Origin: Chrysochromulina tobinii | Taxonomy: Eukaryota; Haptophyta; Prymnesiales; Chrysochromulinaceae | Direction of reading: 5' to 3' | Assembly (NCBI GenBank): GCA_001275005.1 | Contig: JWZX01002930.1 | Span: 1 to 35,734 of the forward strand | DNA: 35,734 nt | In this document: piece after piece, positions 1,480-17,006 of the stretch | How positions within the stretch are numbered: the first letter of the stretch is position 1 | Layout: the number at the start of each line of letters is the position of its first letter | Program-made: the position numbers and the translations under genes | The notes under the pieces: model-generated | The model's input: only the letters and a program-made list of their open reading frames with translations | The model's database searches: none | Told to the model about the DNA's origin: nothing

Positions 1480-3441
1480 TCACATGTCGTGCCGGCTGCG
1501 CTCGATTGCGAGCGCGAGCTGGGCCTCATCATAATTGGGGATCAGCGAGTCGTAATTCGTGACAGAGAGGTGATCCCCTTGATCGGTCCCGGATGGAGTC
1601 ATCATACGGCTAACTTCCAGGGCGAGGGCAAGCTCCGACTCGAAGTCATGCGCATCGCCAGCAGTGCCAGCCACCGTCGCCGCAGCTGCGACCGCCGCCG
1701 GCCGCGACCCCGAAGGCGCCTCTCGCGGCGGCGGCGGCGGCGGAGGAGGAGGAGCTGGTCGTAAGGACGGCGGCGGCGGCGGCGGCGGTGGTGGTGCTCG
1801 TGATGATGGTGGCGGCGGTGGTGCTCGCGATGATTGAGGTGGTGGTGGAGGAGGAGGTGACACCGAACCTCTAGCACTAGCGCGCTGCGCCTGCTCGCGC
1901 CGTGCGAGCACAAACGCCCAGTCGCACCAGGGATCGAGCATGGGCTCCGGCCGGTGCGTCTTCCATGGGGTTGGTCCAAAGGCCGCCGAGTGGATGCGGA
2001 AGTACAGGGCGTAGCGCACGTCCGCACTCGCATTGGGCGCGATCGTGTGGGCCGTCAGGTAGTTGAGGAGAAAGACATCCCCTTTTCGGCCGACGCAGTG
2101 ATGGGGTGGCCGAGGGAAGATTCGAGCGGTCTGCGGGCCGTTGGGCAGCCCGAGGGTGCCGAGCTCGTAGAGGCGCTGCAGGCCGTGCGTGCGAAAATGG
2201 GAGGCGAGCGCCGCATGCGAGCCCGGGAAGGCCATGAGCTCGCCACCATTCGGATTCGGCACGTCAGCAAGCAGGACGCCGCACAGGACGCTGAAGTTGT
2301 GAATGGTCCCGAAATGGCTCTGCTCGGGATTGTCACGCGTTGCTAGGCCGTCAATGTGCCAGTAGCTCGCGTGCAGTTGCGCAGGAGGAGGCTCAAACGT
2401 CCCTGCCTTGCAAAAGTCGCCAGGAAAGCGGAGAGCGACCTGAGCGCCGCCCGACCGAGGCCGGGGGCCGCCCAGCAGGTGCTCGAGGATCCAGGGCAAG
2501 AGACTCCGATTGAACACGTCGGTGACCTCGGGACTCAACTCGAGCCCGGACTTTGCTCCGCGGAGCCCATCCCTGCCCTTGAGAGAGCTACCAAGGTCCT
2601 TGTTGATGGCGCGCCTCGCCACGTCCACGAGCGCCTCTGGCACGACTCCTTCGAGATGCACGTAGCCGTCCGCCTCGAACCGATCGAGGACAGATACGTC
2701 GCAGAGCGCGCGCGCCATATCGGCCGCCTCTTTGCTCCCGAGGGACTCGCCGCCATACAGGCACGTGCCTGCCGTCCAAAAGTCTCCGCGCGACCGCGTC
2801 CCGGCGGACTGCTGCGCCTGCAGCCGACGCGCTGCTGTTGCCACCGCAGCCTCCGAAGGCATGCCGAAACGCTTGATCGCGCTATCGAACGTTGCATGAT
2901 GTTCACGTAGCAGCTGGATCTGGCCCATATCACCTCGACTGAACAGATCAAGCAGCCCTGGGTGTGACGTAAGGATGTGTGACCAGGCAGTGTCAGCGGC
3001 AGCGTTGCCTATGCGTCGGGCTGCTGCATTCGCCAATTCAGTCATGCGGCGGCCCCAGGACGCAGCTCCCCGCTCCGCAGGTACGTCATTGCTCCTCTCT
3101 TCCTTGCCTTTGCCGCCGCCGCTGCCAGCGGCGGCCGCCTTAGGCTCCTGCCCCTTTTTGAGTTGGTCCATGCGCGAGAGGTACTCGTTGCACTTATCGC
3201 GGATCGTCTTCTGCGTGACCGGATTCTTTTCAGACTTGAGCGCTGTAATCAGGTACTCGGTCGCCTTGCCATACTTCTCGATCGCGTCCTTGTAGTTGCC
3301 CGCGTTGTCAGCGTCGACCGCCTGCTTGGCGATCGCGATTCCCTTGTCGCGCATCTCATTCGCCATGGCAAGGTTGCACAGACCGCCGGCGCAGCCGACT
3401 ATCACATAGAGTTTCCAGTGCAGAGTTTGCGCGAAATCCAT
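1480..3441 (-). CDS. MIT domain / PhyH-type 2-oxoglutarate dioxygenase / double UIM fusion
   Basis: Numbered from an upstream in-frame ATG at 3576 (698 residues). Residues 71-142 match the MIT domain of VPS4-type proteins (core AIEKYGKATEYLITALKSE, then IRDKCNEYLSRMDQLKK), which bind ESCRT-III tails. Residues about 290-540 match phytanoyl-CoA dioxygenases: iron ligands H407 and D409 in WHIDG, distal H510 in YLTAH, and R521 for 2-oxoglutarate. Residues 573-617 are polyproline. Two ubiquitin-interacting motifs close the protein: 644-657 (A652-xxx-S656) and 683-696 (A690-xxx-S694). I chose the ATG at 3441 because its context is GCCATGG; the ATG at 3366 has equally good context and would begin exactly where MIT domains usually begin. 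The active site is complete, so an active enzyme is likely; its substrate is unknown. A link to ubiquitin and ESCRT sorting is inference from the flanking domains. Confidence 0.85.
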   Translation of the reverse strand: MDFAQTLHWKLYVIVGCAGGLCNLAMANEMRDKGIAIAKQAVDADNAGNYKDAIEKYGKATEYLITALKSEKNPVTQKTIRDKCNEYLSRMDQLKKGQEPKAAAAGSGGGKGKEERSNDVPAERGAASWGRRMTELANAAARRIGNAAADTAWSHILTSHPGLLDLFSRGDMGQIQLLREHHATFDSAIKRFGMPSEAAVATAARRLQAQQSAGTRSRGDFWTAGTCLYGGESLGSKEAADMARALCDVSVLDRFEADGYVHLEGVVPEALVDVARRAINKDLGSSLKGRDGLRGAKSGLELSPEVTDVFNRSLLPWILEHLLGGPRPRSGGAQVALRFPGDFCKAGTFEPPPAQLHASYWHIDGLATRDNPEQSHFGTIHNFSVLCGVLLADVPNPNGGELMAFPGSHAALASHFRTHGLQRLYELGTLGLPNGPQTARIFPRPPHHCVGRKGDVFLLNYLTAHTIAPNASADVRYALYFRIHSAAFGPTPWKTHRPEPMLDPWCDWAFVLARREQAQRASARGSVSPPPPPPPQSSRAPPPPPSSRAPPPPPPPPPSLRPAPPPPPPPPPREAPSGSRPAAVAAAATVAGTAGDAHDFESELALALEVSRMMTPSGTDQGDHLSVTNYDSLIPNYDEAQLALAIERSRHDM

Positions 3442-3570
3442 GGCTCCTCCGTGCAGTGGAGACACCCCCTCCCCTGAGCTCTCGCCACCCCCCGTCTGGA
3501 GTTCATGGAGACCTTCACAGCAGCCCCGCGGTAACGACGGAGCGAACGCGGGCCGACTTTGCGCTGCTTC

Positions 3571-4689
3571 ATGCAACCCTTATCGCCGACTCGCCGTCGG
3601 TCCGTGCAGGCCTTCTCCGGCCAGTACACGGAGACCACCTCATGGGTGGAGGAAGCCAAGCACGCGATGAACGAGGAGCTCGCCGTTGCAGAGGAGCTGT
3701 CGACGTGGATGCGAAGCCAGCGGACCAAGGAACCCGGCACAACCCGCACATACACATCGCCGTCCTTTAGCCAGCAGCCAGCGCACGCTGCCCCCCGACC
3801 AGGCCACCGAAAGGACCAAGGAACCGTGAGTTCTGCCGATGCCCAAGGAGAAAGTCAAGCTACTCAGCAAGGGTCGGCGCCGCTGCTTCCGCTCTTCATC
3901 CCCAAGCGGCTCGCATGGCTTGACCAGACGTTGAGCCCGGAGTCGCTGCGGCGGCTTGAATCTCAGTCCATGTTCCCACCGCGCCCGTCCCAGCTGCCGC
4001 ATCCGCCCCTGCCGACGGCTGTGCCGCATGTCTCCGCGGACGTGGCGGAGTCGATGAGCTTCGAGCAGCCGGAGCCACCAAAGCCGGCGGCTGGCCCAAT
4101 CGTCACAGTCTCCATGAAGCGCGACGCGACGGGCAAGGTCTCAGTTTCACTGAAGCGCGTCGTGCCCGCGGCCCCCGCTGCTCCGTTGGAACAGATTGAG
4201 AAGCACAATTGTGTCGAACTCTCACTCGCGCACGTTGCGCCCGTGGCCCCCGCTGCTCCGTTGGAAGAGGTCGAGAAGCACGGGTACGGACTCCCCCACC
4301 TCCCTCCCGAGACGAACTACGAGCAGCTGCAGAATCTCGCCCTGCAGCGACGGATCGCCAAGATGGAGGCCGAGCTCGCGCAGGCGCACCTGAGTCAGCA
4401 GGCGACCCTGCAGCAGCTCGCGCAAGGGGAGCATCACAAGCACCAGCTGCAGGCGCAGCTCGCGGAGCTGACGGAGCGTTTGGTCGTGGCGGAGGGCGAT
4501 CTGCTGCAGGGTCGCCTGCTGACTCAGGCGCGCCTGCGCGAGCTCGGCGAGGAGAAAAAGCCCGGTACCCCACTTCCGGACAAGGCGCGACAGCCGTTTA
4601 CGAAGCAGACTTCGCGGGCACAGGCAGTGTACGGCAAGCTGCTCGAAGATAAGGTCTTTTGCATGGTCTTTGCAGGGGTTAAATATTGA
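3571..4689 (+). CDS. Coiled-coil protein with internal repeats
   Basis: A 372-residue protein of unknown function, read from the first in-frame ATG at 3571. The N-terminal half is Pro/Ser-rich and low in order. Two consecutive 25-residue repeats follow (PAAPAAPLEQIEKH and PVAPAAPLEEVEKH cores, 4162-4311). A Gln/Leu/Ala-rich heptad region at about residues 250-325 (ALQRRIAKMEAELAQAH, then QLQAQLAELTERL) predicts a parallel coiled coil. A short basic tail follows (KQTSRAQAVYGKLLEDK). The coiled-coil coding DNA contains a 48-bp inverted repeat. It is divergently arranged with the MIT/dioxygenase gene, the proposed starts being about 130 bp apart. No catalytic motif or membrane segment is visible. 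Confidence 0.65.
   Translation: MQPLSPTRRRSVQAFSGQYTETTSWVEEAKHAMNEELAVAEELSTWMRSQRTKEPGTTRTYTSPSFSQQPAHAAPRPGHRKDQGTVSSADAQGESQATQQGSAPLLPLFIPKRLAWLDQTLSPESLRRLESQSMFPPRPSQLPHPPLPTAVPHVSADVAESMSFEQPEPPKPAAGPIVTVSMKRDATGKVSVSLKRVVPAAPAAPLEQIEKHNCVELSLAHVAPVAPAAPLEEVEKHGYGLPHLPPETNYEQLQNLALQRRIAKMEAELAQAHLSQQATLQQLAQGEHHKHQLQAQLAELTERLVVAEGDLLQGRLLTQARLRELGEEKKPGTPLPDKARQPFTKQTSRAQAVYGKLLEDKVFCMVFAGVKY
4162..4311 (+). repeat. Two tandem 75-bp coding repeats
   Basis: Copies at 4162-4236 and 4237-4311 share an almost identical first 45 bases, including GCCCCCGCTGCTCCGTTGGA. The second halves have diverged. The unit is 25 codons, so the frame is kept. It looks like an in-frame tandem duplication. 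Confidence 0.75.
4369..4548. repeat. 48-bp inverted repeat inside coding sequence
   Basis: Arms at 4369-4416 and 4501-4548 are reverse complements at 47 of 48 positions, separated by 84 bp. Both arms lie in the same frame of the coiled-coil gene: the left reads AELAQAHLSQQATLQQ, the right LLQGRLLTQARLRELG. The RNA could fold into a long hairpin. Confidence 0.9.
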
Positions 4690-8880: not shown

Positions 8881-9377
8881 GGCTATTAGCGCGCACGGGG
8901 TGCCCGCGCCTCTTTGTCGGTCTCGACCGACCTCGCCGGGCGAGGTGTAACGCGAAAACGCGAGTCCGGGCGAGGACATTTTTTGAGTTCTGCTTGTAAG
9001 GTCTGGTGTACGGCCATTACTAGCGACGACAGGAATCGAATCAGAGGTCTTCGGCCAGGACCCAGCTGCCAGGACCCATAAGCCCACCTCGTCAGACAGA
9101 CGCGCTCAAACTTGACAGGTGGTGGAGTGAGCGTGGGGGGACCGCGAAGGAACTGAACTGAACTGAAACTTGACAGGAATGATAAGACTCACACTGCCGG
9201 AGTCGGCGAGGGTGCAGTAGCACGGTTGTCGCGTTTTTCGTGTTGACGTTCACGCGCCAATGTCTACAACAAACGCCGGAACACGACAGGTCTAGGTGCG
9301 TTACGAAGTTTGCAACCGTTTTCGCAAAATATCGACGAAACTGCGGAATCTCGTCTAGAAGACGCAGCTCATCTCAG
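8881..9377. other. Intergenic, short repeats only
   Basis: About 500 bases between the helicase stop and the RING-CH start. It holds a short GAACT-type repeat near 9150-9166, two copies of AAACTTGACAGG (near 9107 and 9167) and two copies of CCAGGACCC near 9055-9077. A degenerate tRNA-like B-box on the minus strand near 9031 was considered and rejected. The frame of the next gene is open upstream to 9240 but has no ATG there. Confidence 0.5.
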
Positions 9378-12300
9378 ATGGCCGGCGTCCGGCGCGCGCG
9401 CGCCGCGCTACGCCACTCGCTGCGTCCATCGTTCTACGACGATCACGAGGACGTTCTCGCGCCATCGATCGGCCGCGCGTGCATGCACCTCTGTGCTGTC
9501 TGCGCAGTGCTGTCGCTGCCGGCGACGCTCAGCCTGCTGGTGCGCCTCGGACCGGCGATCGCGGCTCTGCGAGCTTCGTCGCTCCTGGACGACGCGGTGC
9601 GCCTCTTCCCCGACGGGGTCGAGATAGTCGTTAATGGCAGCACGCTCCACCTTAGGCCAAAGCCGAATGTCGGGCCGCTCGGAGGAGCGCCAACGGCACC
9701 GGAGGCAGAGTCCGGGACCAGGTACGTATGCTGGGAGGAGGATGCGAGCAGCTGGTGCGCGACCGCGCCGCAGCTCGAGCCGATACGCCTGACGCTACCC
9801 ATGCTACTCCACGACGTGAGCTTTTCCGACCTGCCCTCACCGCTGCACCTGCCGCCGGCGCGGCTGGCGGCGCTCGCGACGCAGGGCGTGGAGGCGCTCA
9901 CGTCGGAGGATGCCTTCTTCGAGGGCTTCCCGCCGCTGGTCGAGTTCGAGGTGGGCGAGCGCGTACAGGTGCAGCACGGGTACGCGGCCCTCATCTGGGC
10001 GGGTGGCTGGGTCGCCGGCACGATCGTCGCCACCCACCCAGCGCGCGACGTTCGCCGGTACGGGTACACTGTGGAGCTCGCTGATGGCACGCACGTGCGC
10101 AAGCGCTCAGACCACCTGCGCCGGCCGCCGAGCCTCGTGCTCGCGCACGACGACAGCTTCAGCGCGCCGCTGCCCGCGACGCAGAGCGAGCGCCCCTCGG
10201 CGGCGCTGCGCTCGGAGCTGCTCGCTCTGCGCACGGACATGGTACTCACGCCGCGCCAGATCCACGTGCTCCATGGATACTCATTTGCTTTTGGGCAGTA
10301 CTGGCAATACAAGTCATCCCGCGCGCGCACCTCCCGCCTGACCACGCTCCACTCGGTCTCGGTGACCACGGCCACCGCGTACCCACCCTTTGCGCTCGCC
10401 GCGGCCGCGCTGTGCGACGCCCCAGACGAGGGCGTCCTCGTGTGCTCGCGTGTGACGGCGGCCGCGCGGGTGGCGCCTTGGCGCAAGCTTTGGTGGGTAC
10501 CGCTCTGCAGCGGCCCCGCCGGGCTGCACGTGCTCCTCGTCTCGGTGGCCGCCCTCTCCCTCGGAGCGCTCAAGAGCATCATGCTCACAGTCCCTCCGAT
10601 CGGGCTCATCCACCTGCCTCTCGCGTACATGGGCGCCAACCTGTTGCGGCACGTGGACACCCCTCTCACGCCCGTGCGCACGATCGCGGTGCTCGGCGCG
10701 CTCTCGGCGACGCCCTTTCTGCTCCTCGACGAGGCGCTCGAGCTAGGGCTTGCCGCTCTCGAGGCGGTGCGCGCCGTCCGGGACGGCGGGCGGCCCTTGG
10801 AGGCGGACGAGGAGGCGGACGAGGGCGCCGACGTCAACGAGGACGCGAGCGAAGACGCGGAGCGGCCGGAGCGAGCTGCCGCGCGCGAGAAGGAAGAGGA
10901 GGAGGCCGACGGTGCGGACGACGAGGAGGACGAGGAGGCGGACGACGCCCTCGCCTCCGACGGCGGCGGCGACGATCGCGTCGTTGGTCAGCTGCGGGCC
11001 TTCCTCGCCGCCATCCGCCCCGCTGGTGCTCCAGCTTCGCGGGTAGCCGAGGAGGTAGCCGAGGGGGCGGCGGCGGCCGAGGGGGCGGTGGTTGAGGAGG
11101 TGCGCTACGCGACCATCTCTCTGCCGGTGCGGGGCGGGCAGAGCTTCGAGCATCGCGTCGATGGGCAGCGCCTCACCTTCACCGCACCGGCGGGCGCCCT
11201 CGCTGGGAGCGAAGCCGAGTTCGCCTTCATCGGTCAGCGGCTCGGTGGAGCCGACGGCGGGCTATCGATCCCCACTCGCTACGTCGACCTTCCCATGCCC
11301 GTGGGCGGCGGCACCTCATTCGCGTGGATCATCGACGGAGTCGAGCATGAATTCATAGCACCGATGGGCACGCGGCGCGGCGAGACGCATCGATTCACTT
11401 TCCCGCGGCTGGCGAGCGAGCTCGAGCTGGCTACGAGCAAAATGCTTGTGGCCGAGGCCCACGCCCTCGAGGCCGCGGCCAAGGCCGAGGCGGCGGCCAA
11501 GGCGCACGCGGCGGCACAAGCGCTTGCGGAGGCCGACGAGCAAGCGCTCGTGGAGGCCGACGACGCCGACGAGAGCCGACAGGCCGCGGCGGAGGCGGCG
11601 GCAGAGGCAGAGGCGATCGAGCTGATCGTGTTGAAGGAGAGCGCCGGCGTGCGCCTCGGCATCACCCTCTTCCGAAACGACCCGTACGCCGCTGCCGAGC
11701 CAGACGGCGCCGCCGAGGGTGGCGCCCGCGACGGCGACGCCTCGGCGGCGGCGGTGGTGAGTTCGGTGGAGGAGGATGGGTTGGCTGCACGCTCGGGCAC
11801 GTGGGAGCGTGGCATGCAGCTGCTCGCAGTGCAAGGGGTACCCGTCACCTCGGCCTTGCATGCGGTCCAGCTGCTACGTCTCGCCGAGGGGACCGTGCGC
11901 GTGCATGCACTGCCCAAGCGGCCTGACTTTGAGCGGCGGCGGTTCGCGTTTGAGCTGCTCGAGGCAAATCGCGAGGCAGACCAAGCGGAACAGGAGGCGG
12001 CAAAGGCGCGCTCGAGGCTCGAGACGGCGCGACGAGCACATGCGGCGGCCAAGGCGGCCGAAGCGGGCTTGCCAGCAGGCGTCACGTTACTCGATGCGTC
12101 AGAGGAGGAGGTGGCGGCGGCGACGCACATGGTCTTCGAGAGTGGCGTACGGAAGCGGCTGCGTCGCCTCTTGCGCGTGCTGAGCAAGGGGGACGCGGGT
12201 GCGACAGGGCCTCCTGGTAAGCGCTTGTCACGCCCGCGACGGCTCCTCGTGCAGCTGAGCGCACTCGATCAGCTGCTCGAGGACTGGCGTGCACTTGCCC

Positions 12301-13862
12301 AGGAGCATCCCTCGGTGCTCATGGCCGTGGAGGCGAAGGCGGCGAGCATGCGGGACGCTTTCGCTGACGCCGCCATGGCTGAGGCCATGGCCGAGGCCTC
12401 CGCCATGATTGCCGAGGCCGAGGCCGCCGCCGAGGCGAAGGCGCACACGAAGGGGCGCGCCCGCGTGACGCTCATCGCTGCCGCCGCGGCCGCAGCACAG
12501 GCCGAGCCATCTCCCGAGGCGGGGATGGCGGCGTCGACCTCCGACGCACCTGTACCGCCCGTATCCACGCCGTCGAGGCTGTGGACGGCCGTGTCCCCCG
12601 CGCTTGAGGCGGCCCTAGTGGCGGTGGCGCGCGAGGCGGAGAGCGCGGCGCGCTGGCTACAGGACGCGACGCGCTGGCGGCTCGGGCTGCATGTCGCCTT
12701 TGTGTGCTATCTCGCGGCGCGCCTCCGCGGGCGCGAGAGGGAAGGGGAGCGGCTCGCGCAGGCCGCCACCCGACGCCATGCCGTACGTGAGGCAGCTCGG
12801 CAGGAGCCGGCGCCACCCGCCGAGCCGGCGGCAGGCGCTCGAGGTGCCGATGGACACAGCGCGGCGGCTGGAGAGGCGTGCGACGTGTGCGAACCGACAG
12901 AGGAGGAGGAGCCCATCTGTCGCATTTGCTTCGGTGGTCGCGAGGCGGGTCTGCTCGTGTCGCCCTGCCTGTGCTCCGGTAGCATGCGCTTCGTGCACCT
13001 CGACTGCCTCACTCACTGGCGCCAGGTCTCCGTCAACCCTCTCTCGCATGTGCAGTGCGACTCATGCCATTACAGATACTCGTTCCGTCGCGCGCTCTAT
13101 GCGACGGTGCTGCGCTCCGCCCTCGTCCTCCACCTGCTCACCTTCGTCGTACTCGGCGCGCTCTTGCTGCTCGGCTCAGCGCTCGTACAGTATGTCGACC
13201 GCACGTGGTTCGGGGCGTCGCTGCCCGACATGCTCCCCCTCGGCCCCGAGAGCTTCGGAATGCTCGTCGGTCCCTCGTCCTCGCTACTCACCCCCGCGAG
13301 CTGGCTCGGTGTCGACGCGAGCTACGTCCTTGCCTCGCTCACGCTCGTCGGAGTCTCCGGCTTCCTCTCCCTCGGCATCCTCGGCCCTATGCTCTGGCCT
13401 GGCCGCGCCCAACACGAGTCCCTCCTCGTCCTCGTGGTGCTCGTCGGCCTGTTGCGTACCTTCTCTTTCATTTACCGAGCTGTCAAGAGCCGATCCGCCC
13501 ACCTCCTGCAACAAGCAGAGAAGCTCGTCATCGATGTAGGCGCTTCACCGCCCCCGCCGCCACACCCGCCGCCGCAACCCCAGCCGCCGCAACCCCAGCC
13601 GCCGCCGCAACCCCAGCCGCCGCCGCAACCGCAACCGGCGGAGCCGCTGCCGCCAGGCTGGCATCGTGCGACAGAGCCAGCTGCCCAGGCGGCAGCCGAG
13701 GCGGCGGTCGAAGAGGCGGTCGAGGCGGCGGTCGAGGCTGTCTCCGAGGCCGAGACCGATGCCACGGTTGAGACGGCTTGTGGACCGTCAGTGGGGCTGC
13801 GTTTGCGCTCGCGGCCTGCCCCCGACGAAGAGGCGTTGGAGGCGTGGCCTCTAGTGGACTGA
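9378..13862 (+). CDS. Large multi-domain membrane E3 ubiquitin ligase with RING-CH finger
   Basis: A 1494-residue protein from the first in-frame ATG. The diagnostic part is a C4HC3 RING-CH finger as in MARCH/Doa10 ligases: C1181, C1184, C1197, C1199, H1207, C1210, C1227, C1230. Three hydrophobic segments follow at about 1249-1273, 1314-1340 and 1348-1370. N-terminal to the finger, in order: a membrane segment (about 35-58), a Tudor/SH3-like stretch (about 189-251, GERVQVQHG to ELADGTHVRKRSDHL), two or three membrane segments (about 384-458), a strongly acidic linker (475-535), two copies of a beta-type repeat (577-615 and 635-677, cores LPVRGGQSF and LPMPVGGGTSF), an Ala-rich helix, a PDZ-like region (about 749-847), and a second Ala-rich helix. 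The C-terminus is Pro/Gln-rich and ends in LPPGWHRATEP, resembling the start of a WW domain. It probably ubiquitinates membrane-associated substrates; which membrane is unknown. Confidence 0.87.
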   Translation: MAGVRRARAALRHSLRPSFYDDHEDVLAPSIGRACMHLCAVCAVLSLPATLSLLVRLGPAIAALRASSLLDDAVRLFPDGVEIVVNGSTLHLRPKPNVGPLGGAPTAPEAESGTRYVCWEEDASSWCATAPQLEPIRLTLPMLLHDVSFSDLPSPLHLPPARLAALATQGVEALTSEDAFFEGFPPLVEFEVGERVQVQHGYAALIWAGGWVAGTIVATHPARDVRRYGYTVELADGTHVRKRSDHLRRPPSLVLAHDDSFSAPLPATQSERPSAALRSELLALRTDMVLTPRQIHVLHGYSFAFGQYWQYKSSRARTSRLTTLHSVSVTTATAYPPFALAAAALCDAPDEGVLVCSRVTAAARVAPWRKLWWVPLCSGPAGLHVLLVSVAALSLGALKSIMLTVPPIGLIHLPLAYMGANLLRHVDTPLTPVRTIAVLGALSATPFLLLDEALELGLAALEAVRAVRDGGRPLEADEEADEGADVNEDASEDAERPERAAAREKEEEEADGADDEEDEEADDALASDGGGDDRVVGQLRAFLAAIRPAGAPASRVAEEVAEGAAAAEGAVVEEVRYATISLPVRGGQSFEHRVDGQRLTFTAPAGALAGSEAEFAFIGQRLGGADGGLSIPTRYVDLPMPVGGGTSFAWIIDGVEHEFIAPMGTRRGETHRFTFPRLASELELATSKMLVAEAHALEAAAKAEAAAKAHAAAQALAEADEQALVEADDADESRQAAAEAAAEAEAIELIVLKESAGVRLGITLFRNDPYAAAEPDGAAEGGARDGDASAAAVVSSVEEDGLAARSGTWERGMQLLAVQGVPVTSALHAVQLLRLAEGTVRVHALPKRPDFERRRFAFELLEANREADQAEQEAAKARSRLETARRAHAAAKAAEAGLPAGVTLLDASEEEVAAATHMVFESGVRKRLRRLLRVLSKGDAGATGPPGKRLSRPRRLLVQLSALDQLLEDWRALAQEHPSVLMAVEAKAASMRDAFADAAMAEAMAEASAMIAEAEAAAEAKAHTKGRARVTLIAAAAAAAQAEPSPEAGMAASTSDAPVPPVSTPSRLWTAVSPALEAALVAVAREAESAARWLQDATRWRLGLHVAFVCYLAARLRGREREGERLAQAATRRHAVREAARQEPAPPAEPAAGARGADGHSAAAGEACDVCEPTEEEEPICRICFGGREAGLLVSPCLCSGSMRFVHLDCLTHWRQVSVNPLSHVQCDSCHYRYSFRRALYATVLRSALVLHLLTFVVLGALLLLGSALVQYVDRTWFGASLPDMLPLGPESFGMLVGPSSSLLTPASWLGVDASYVLASLTLVGVSGFLSLGILGPMLWPGRAQHESLLVLVVLVGLLRTFSFIYRAVKSRSAHLLQQAEKLVIDVGASPPPPPHPPPQPQPPQPQPPPQPQPPPQPQPAEPLPPGWHRATEPAAQAAAEAAVEEAVEAAVEAVSEAETDATVETACGPSVGLRLRSRPAPDEEALEAWPLVD

Positions 13863-15551: not shown

Positions 15552-17006
15552 CTAGCGCGCGCCCTCCTCGGCAGCTTGGTAGAGCGCGTTGATCTCCTGA
15601 GAGACCTCGGTGACGCGCCGGAGGATGGCCTCGCGCTCCTCGGGATCGAGGCGGCTGCCAAAGACCTGTACAAACTTGTCTGGGTGCCAGCGCAGCGACT
15701 TGGCGCGGAACGCTTGCTTGCGCTCCGCCGCACTTGCTGTCGCCGGGTCGAGGCCGAGAGCGCCCGCCTGCAGGGTGGGCCACGGCACGTCCACCACGCT
15801 GATGGGCGAATCAGAGCCCGAGCCGACGAAGCGCTCCCAGGCGGCGTCGTCCGATGCCGCCGCGGCCGCAGACTGCGCCGCGCTCGTCGGCGGCGCGGAT
15901 CCCTTTCGGAGCCGCTCCTTCTCCGCGTTGGCCTCGGCGCGCCGCCGCTCGTGTGCCACCTCCGCCTCGCGCCTCGCCTCCTCGCGCTTCTTCTGATCGC
16001 TCTTGTAACGGCTCCACCGGCCGGCGAGCATCTCGTCGTACAATTCGTCGTTCTCGTCGTCGTCTTTGAGTCCTCGATCCGGATCGGGCTCCGGCTCGGG
16101 CCGCCGTGCAGGGCGGCGTGTACCCGCGGCCGGGGGCCCGTACCCGGGCACGCGGTAGACGCCCGCGCCGCCAAAGCCGCGCCCTCGGCTGGCACTGCCG
16201 CTGCTGCCGCTTCCGCTGCTACTGCCGGAGGCGGAGGAGCCCGTGCTCGTGCCGTTGCGAGCGCGCCCGCCGCTCGCGCGCCCGCCGTCGCTGCGTAACG
16301 AGCCCGTGCTCGAGGCCGAGGAGGGACGCTCGCCCATCGCTGTGTTCACGAGGCGCACCGGGCCCTCACGCGCGGCGCCGCTGCCACCTTTGGGCGCGCC
16401 GCGCACCTTGGCGCACATCTCGCAGTATGGGAGGCTCTCCTCGTGTACGTGCCCACAATGCACACATCGCCACGACGCGCTGCCCTCGCCAGCAAGAGTG
16501 GTCGCCGCAGCCCCACCCGCCGAAGTGCGCCGCGCAGACGCGCTTCCCGAGCTGGACGTAGCAGGTCGCGCGCACGAAGGGGCGCTGGGCGCCTCCGGAG
16601 CTAACCGCGCGGATGAAGGGGCGCTGGGCGCCTCTGCCGCCGCGCGGCCGGCCACGTTGGCAAGCGAGAGCAAAAAGTCGCTCATCGGACGCGCCGACGC
16701 GTTGGGCACTTGCAGCACGGCATCCACAATCGGCGATGGTTCGAGGGCGTCCCCAATGGAGACGCCCACCAACCCGATAATTTTGGCGCAATACAGCCGC
16801 TGCGCCTCCGCGGTCTGCTGGCCGCCTCGGCGCTCGTCCGCCGTGTACAGGCCGCGGCCGAAGCCGGTGTTGCTGCAGAGTTGACTCACGACCTCGTGAA
16901 ATCCGTTGAAGCTCGGCTCGGAGAGTAGCGAACGCACGTCGGCGGCTGGCACGCCGAAAGCCGAGAGGGCGTCGGTCACCTTGGCGAGGCGTCCCGCGAA
17001 CTGCAT
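15552..17006 (-). CDS. IFT54-like CH domain / RanBP2-type zinc finger / NFKBIL1-type J-like domain fusion
   Basis: A 484-residue protein from a true ATG. Residues 1-120 resemble the N-terminal CH-like domain of IFT54/TRAF3IP1, which binds tubulin in intraflagellar transport: the order LLSEPSF (27-33), FHEVVSQL, TGFGRGLYT (47-55) and a closing helix near 107-120 matches that family. Residues 179-198 form a RanBP2-like finger (W179, C181, C184, C195, C198), although the usual Asn is replaced. A long Ser/Gly/Arg low-complexity linker and a charged helix (320-370, KKREEARREAEVAHERRR) follow. Residues 405-480 match the C-terminal region of NFKBIL1: VDVPWP, LRWHPDKF (438-445, with HPD at 441-443), FGSRLDPEER and VTEVSQEINALYQ. 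Animal NFKBIL1 has ankyrin repeats instead. The HPD suggests a J-domain-like Hsp70 link. A ciliary or RNA-processing role is inference. Confidence 0.82.
   Translation of the reverse strand: MQFAGRLAKVTDALSAFGVPAADVRSLLSEPSFNGFHEVVSQLCSNTGFGRGLYTADERRGGQQTAEAQRLYCAKIIGLVGVSIGDALEPSPIVDAVLQVPNASARPMSDFLLSLANVAGRAAAEAPSAPSSARLAPEAPSAPSCARPATSSSGSASARRTSAGGAAATTLAGEGSASWRCVHCGHVHEESLPYCEMCAKVRGAPKGGSGAAREGPVRLVNTAMGERPSSASSTGSLRSDGGRASGGRARNGTSTGSSASGSSSGSGSSGSASRGRGFGGAGVYRVPGYGPPAAGTRRPARRPEPEPDPDRGLKDDDENDELYDEMLAGRWSRYKSDQKKREEARREAEVAHERRRAEANAEKERLRKGSAPPTSAAQSAAAAASDDAAWERFVGSGSDSPISVVDVPWPTLQAGALGLDPATASAAERKQAFRAKSLRWHPDKFVQVFGSRLDPEEREAILRRVTEVSQEINALYQAAEEGAR

Follow-up and report, generated by a model that had tools for sequence, protein, structure and literature searches.

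What an oxygenase might do with modules for ubiquitin and for ESCRT-III is the question raised by a locus on contig JWZX01002930.1 of Chrysochromulina tobinii, where one reading frame joins an MIT domain, a phytanoyl-CoA dioxygenase (PhyH) domain and two short C-terminal motifs resembling ubiquitin-interacting motifs (UIM). Whether this is one gene, where its parts came from and which function they suggest are considered below; the window denotes the whole stretch of 35,734 nucleotides that was analysed.

A single-frame fusion of MIT, PhyH and a UIM-like tail

ORF analysis of the window indicated that the gene occupies a single minus-strand frame extending from 1480 to 3579, stop to stop (Table 1). 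Of the two candidate starts, ATG 3366 is favoured over the upstream ATG 3441, which would add 25 residues (653-aa numbering): the residues that precede MANEM are not well conserved in the 97%-identical homologue P0001, and ATG 3366 has the GCCATGG context of the donor gene of the MIT domain described below. MANEM is likewise the beginning of two called proteins from the donor family, P0005 and P0006; the context of ATG 3441 is as good as that of ATG 3366.

P0001 (643 aa) is carried by a separate 23-kb contig, and its alignment with the window protein showed 622 of 644 columns to be identical, spanning MIT, both junctions, PhyH and the tail. Most of the differences fall before MANEM or within the proline tract, and the 59-aa tail has none. 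The union of MIT, PhyH and UIM-like tail in one frame is confirmed as a real fusion.

Table 1. Features of the fusion gene, with positions in the window.
Feature	Position	Strand	Remarks
Coding sequence	1480..3366	-	favoured start ATG 3366, MANEMRDKG..., 628 aa
Captured segment, 286 bp	3084..3369	-	97% identical to 5' coding end of MIT-AAA-SAM gene L003, contig C1537
MIT domain	3154..3348	-	Pfam PF04212, E 6.7e-21, 74.6 bits, cut-off 30
Helical middle segment	2806..3063	-	no named family; related stretch in P0012, partly in P0010
PhyH Fe(II)/2-oxoglutarate dioxygenase domain	2014..2679	-	Pfam PF05721, E 1.5e-5, 25.8 bits, cut-off 22
H-x-D iron ligands H362, D364 (653-aa numbering)	2350..2358	-	invariant in 23/23 aligned
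Distal iron ligand H465 (653-aa numbering)	2047..2049	-	invariant in 23/23 aligned
2-oxoglutarate-binding arginine R476 (653-aa numbering)	2014..2016	-	invariant in 23/23 aligned
Polyproline linker	1720..1857	-	length differs in P0001
UIM-like motif 1 DFESELALALEVSRMM	1600..1647	-	predicted helix 576-588 (628-aa model), low pLDDT; no Pfam match
UIM-like motif 2 NYDEAQLALAIERSRHDM	1483..1536	-	extreme C-terminus; predicted helix 614-627 (628-aa model), low pLDDT

Other frames of the window were inspected by eye. Head-to-head with the fusion gene lies a plus-strand frame at 3535-4689 (384 aa, stop to stop), coiled-coil-like, which overlaps the upstream end of the fusion gene's frame, and a shared promoter region is possible. 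A long plus-strand frame at 9240-13862 carries a RING-CH-like cysteine pattern near its C-terminus, and a minus-strand frame at 15552-17006 combines a zinc-finger pattern of RanBP type with an end that resembles a J domain.

The catalytic core, its tail and the PhyH clade

A complete set of iron and 2-oxoglutarate ligands had been listed in the preliminary description as H407, D409, H510 and R521. The residues are present and invariant, but the numbering was one too low, the positions in the 699-aa numbering used there being H408, D410, H511 and R522. PhyH is an expanded family in this genome, with 54 matches.

The polyproline tract was found as previously described; the two motifs in the tail, which had been called well-formed UIMs, gave a more divided result. 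The UIM consensus is an acidic stretch followed by hydrophobic-x-x-Ala-hydrophobic-x-x-Ser, and both motifs reach it. When the 59-aa tail was shuffled 200,000 times, a pair of motifs with a UIM core preceded by at least two acidic residues, a rule drawn up from this consensus after the motif had been seen, arose once; 18 PhyH frames taken from the genome as controls (6,658 residues) contained not even one core. A profile built from eight motifs of relatives, with the window excluded, gave the window motifs 14.1 and 7.9 bits, compared with 6.6 bits for the top-scoring shuffle among 20,000 and -0.8 for the best control. When all 10 motifs of the clade, picked for UIM resemblance and including two from the window, were made into a profile and compared with the PDB, ataxin-3 came first at 2.4e-6, followed by Vps27, USP25, ZFAND2B and HRS, with unrelated proteins among the weaker matches.

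Set against these results, Pfam UIM (PF02809) gave motif 2 only 12.3 bits where the cut-off is 21, and motif 1 nothing, with a 56-aa tail as query; searched with the whole protein, it matched neither motif at E<=1. As a 21-aa piece, motif 2 had no Pfam match at E<=10, and both window motifs were absent from the 37 places returned by a genome-wide UIM scan at E<=1. Among the clade's 10 motif pieces compared with Pfam at E<=10, four matched UIM and two UIM_2. We accept both motifs as UIM-like beyond chance and not as Pfam-certified UIMs.

Profile searches, two in number, supplied the relatives P0007-P0064. The phylogenetic tree of 48 PhyH cores showed that 42 of them, including the window protein and its paralogue L002, lie on one side of a branch with support of 99/99, while P0022-P0024 and the divergent P0026, P0028 and P0030 fell outside. 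UIM cores were found in six of the 42 rows, with two copies in the window protein, P0002, P0011 and P0020 and one each in P0012 and P0057, these single motifs being weak alone since each is reached by 0.7% of shuffles. A UIM-type motif stands at the very C-terminus of the window protein, P0011, P0057 and P0002, and also of P0020, there with Val for Ala. A CUE domain exceeded the Pfam cut-off in eight rows (the close paralogue L002, P0007, P0008, P0013, P0032, P0034, P0054 and P0056), which are not independent, L002 and P0007 being near-identical. Over the same cut-offs a UBA domain was found in P0015 (1/42) and a RanBP-type zinc finger in P0059 (1/42); some zinc fingers of this type bind ubiquitin and others do not. 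P0009 (1/42) has an end that is CUE-like by eye only. The remaining 25 of the 42 rows, some of them truncated proteins, showed no recognised ubiquitin-binding module.

All CUE rows fall within one subgroup (91/88), which also holds the zinc-finger row P0059 and the module-less P0053. No branch separates the chosen outgroup from the rest, which leaves the position of the root uncertain; if the bacterial-type rows are taken as outside, UIM-type rows lie near the base of the clade. Replacement of one reader by another within the clade would be the simplest history. The pairing of PhyH with ubiquitin-binding modules is the older association, MIT having probably joined later.

A further pattern, NYDxL / NNDHT(I/V)P, was noted in the tails of the window protein (1483-1860) and its relatives; written after the tails had been inspected, it occurs in 21 of 38 tails compared with 1.2 expected from shuffles, and a few of the 21 look like chance.

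The main rival to a ubiquitin-directed function is that the protein is a metabolic PhyH oxygenase acting on a small molecule, its ubiquitin-binding tail serving its own regulation, for example by coupled mono-ubiquitylation or turnover. The closest solved structures, GriE, H11, EctD and SnoK, are enzymes of free amino acids, ectoine and natural products, and relatives of the catalytic core, compared over the core, occur at 44 bacterial loci; both observations fit such an enzyme. Against it, the ubiquitin-binding modules found repeatedly in one clade are of different kinds, whereas the 18 other PhyH frames examined from the same genome (of 54 places) matched at E<=1 neither MIT nor any family that binds ubiquitin. 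We regard the metabolic reading as rather unlikely.

Origin of the MIT domain

The MIT domain that had been claimed is borne out by the Pfam match over the curated cut-off and by a predicted three-helix fold (pLDDT about 90). It had further been described as VPS4-like, which holds by profile, with PDB Vps4 matches to the MIT region down to 5.1e-13, but its nearest source, of MIT-AAA-SAM type, is not a VPS4-like gene. At E<=1 Pfam found no AAA ATPase domain in the window protein, which does not have the VPS4-type MIT-AAA architecture. The MIT of L058, taken by eye for a VPS4 gene of this genome, is much less similar to the window MIT than that of the donor.

The protein of donor L003 (1528-3288) has MIT, an AAA domain and two SAM matches; the AAA is presumably CbbX/SpoVK-like, going by the AAA lid family given for P0004. 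Homology between donor and window gene starts at the GCCATGG start-codon context and stops shortly past the charged linker of MIT; the stretches upstream look dissimilar, and the 234 bp upstream in the window (3367-3600) gave no second match in the genome. Six of 90 codons differ between the two genes, three synonymously and three nonsynonymously. Judged by these sequences, the window MIT is a young copy from the MIT-AAA-SAM gene.

Among the PhyH relatives returned, MIT occurs in the window gene, the homologue P0001 and two fragment contigs only; the called frames of P0010 and P0012, which carry relatives of the middle segment, are without it. Since the called frame of P0012 combines the middle segment with PhyH and lacks MIT, the domain was probably added onto an older middle-segment/PhyH protein, with the caveats that P0012 may have an upstream exon and that the next relative, P0011, is without its N-terminus.

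P0003 (430 aa, from a metagenome) has the MIT start of the donor gene and then the linker, followed by sequence that by eye is ESCRT-III-tail-like, and is possibly another chimera from the same MIT 5' end. The genome contains seven MIT and 11 Snf7 (ESCRT-III) matches. Two single open frames, L063 (G000:C1453:12763-14769, 761 aa) with four Snf7 matches and L070 (G000:C1741:15541-17031, 706 aa) with two, apparently represent tandemly fused ESCRT-III-like units.

Human VPS4A numbering was placed on an alignment with yeast Vps4, and at the positions we take to be equivalent the leucine of L64 is kept while V13 is replaced by Ala. PMC11218997 assigns L64 to the MIM1 groove and V13 to the MIM2 groove.

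The second rival, compatible with a ubiquitin-directed oxygenase, holds that the added MIT is neutral or will be short-lived, the recent duplication of a 5' coding end having supplied a start codon but no ESCRT function. The DNA identity to the donor, the boundary at the start-codon context and the restriction of MIT to so few of the returned relatives agree with this; on the other side, frame and MIT are kept in two diverged gene copies, and the MIM1-groove leucine is retained. Selection on MIT is unproven because the copy is so recent, and we consider this neutral origin a genuine possibility that falls somewhat short of probable. That the chimera is an artefact of assembly or gene calling is hardly credible: the copied segment is a repeat able to mislead an assembler, and P0018 and P0019 resemble chimeric contigs of such kind with bacterial-type ends, but both junctions are present in P0001 on its own contig and the two MIT copies of the genome differ at the codons counted above.

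Proposed function and comparison with known systems

Our preferred reading, to which we give an even chance, is a 2-oxoglutarate (2OG) oxygenase tethered to ubiquitin that has lately gained an address of ESCRT type. Its C-terminal UIM-like helices, carried on a flexible proline linker, would keep this PhyH-type Fe(II)/2-oxoglutarate oxygenase close to ubiquitylated proteins, other members of the clade apparently being held by CUE or UBA domains instead, and the substrate would be such a protein or something in its immediate vicinity. In the lineage of the window gene the 5' end of the MIT-AAA-SAM gene would have been copied in front of the oxygenase, and MIT would provide a second address through affinity for MIM-type peptides such as ESCRT-III tails.

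The sequences themselves show that one frame holds the domains and the active-site residues, that a segment was copied in and that ubiquitin modules recur in some relatives. In favour of the tethered oxygenase stand the domains and residues, the junctions in P0001, the MIT copy, the recurrence of modules together with their absence from 18 of 18 controls, the UIM motif tests and the genomic Snf7 matches. Against it stand the Pfam UIM cut-off, the 25 module-less rows and the non-independent CUE rows, as well as the small-molecule activity of the solved relatives, the recent date of the MIT copy and the change of V13 to Ala.

Recruitment of an oxygenase to ubiquitinated cargo or ESCRT sites had been proposed in the preliminary description, and its two halves fared differently. 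The tie to ubiquitin gains support because different ubiquitin-binding modules recur in the PhyH clade, though most rows show none, while the ESCRT or endosomal half is weaker because MIT is a recent copy, rare among the PhyH relatives returned. A broader proposal, which we hold to be unlikely and offer as speculation, is a eukaryotic oxygenase family that hydroxylates ubiquitin or ubiquitylated proteins and swaps UIM, CUE, UBA and zinc-finger readers, its window member newly sent to ESCRT-III sites by the captured MIT, giving oxygen- and 2OG-dependent control of ubiquitin-tagged cargo.

The earlier statement that no PhyH enzyme with both MIT and UIM is known agrees with our searches of open papers, which found no such architecture. 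In open full texts, a scope outside which most subscription papers lie, PhyH with UIM returned nothing, PhyH with an MIT domain returned one transcriptome paper only, and PhyH with CUE or a ubiquitin-binding domain returned nothing relevant. The MIT copy illustrates clearly, and at a young stage, how copying a 5' coding end can graft a targeting domain onto an enzyme, and the recurrence of readers hints that the clade may be a previously unrecognised group of ubiquitin-guided oxygenases.

Members of the PhyH family (human PHYH/PAHX and PHYHD1, bacterial GriE and EctD) share the fold, the iron triad and the 2OG arginine with the window protein, at 16-21% identity in structure-based alignments; to our knowledge these four consist of the catalytic domain alone, with neither MIT nor ubiquitin-binding motifs. 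The MIT domain is shared with VPS4 and other MIT-AAA ATPases; AAA is absent from the window protein. Unlike the window protein, none of the UIM proteins ataxin-3, Vps27, USP25, ZFAND2B, HRS and RPN10 is an oxygenase. 2OG oxygenases sense oxygen and metabolism, ubiquitin governs protein fate, and in the link between them that we know of the two functions reside in separate proteins; a clade whose oxygenases bear their own ubiquitin readers would provide candidates for a direct link. In the ALKBH3-ASCC complex the CUE domain of ASCC2 directs ALKBH3, also a 2OG dioxygenase, to K63-ubiquitin (PMC8800115). There the enzyme is of AlkB type and the CUE domain belongs to the separate subunit ASCC2, whereas in the window clade the module is fused to PhyH. 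ALKBH3-ASCC2 is the nearest known analogue of the proposed tethering principle.
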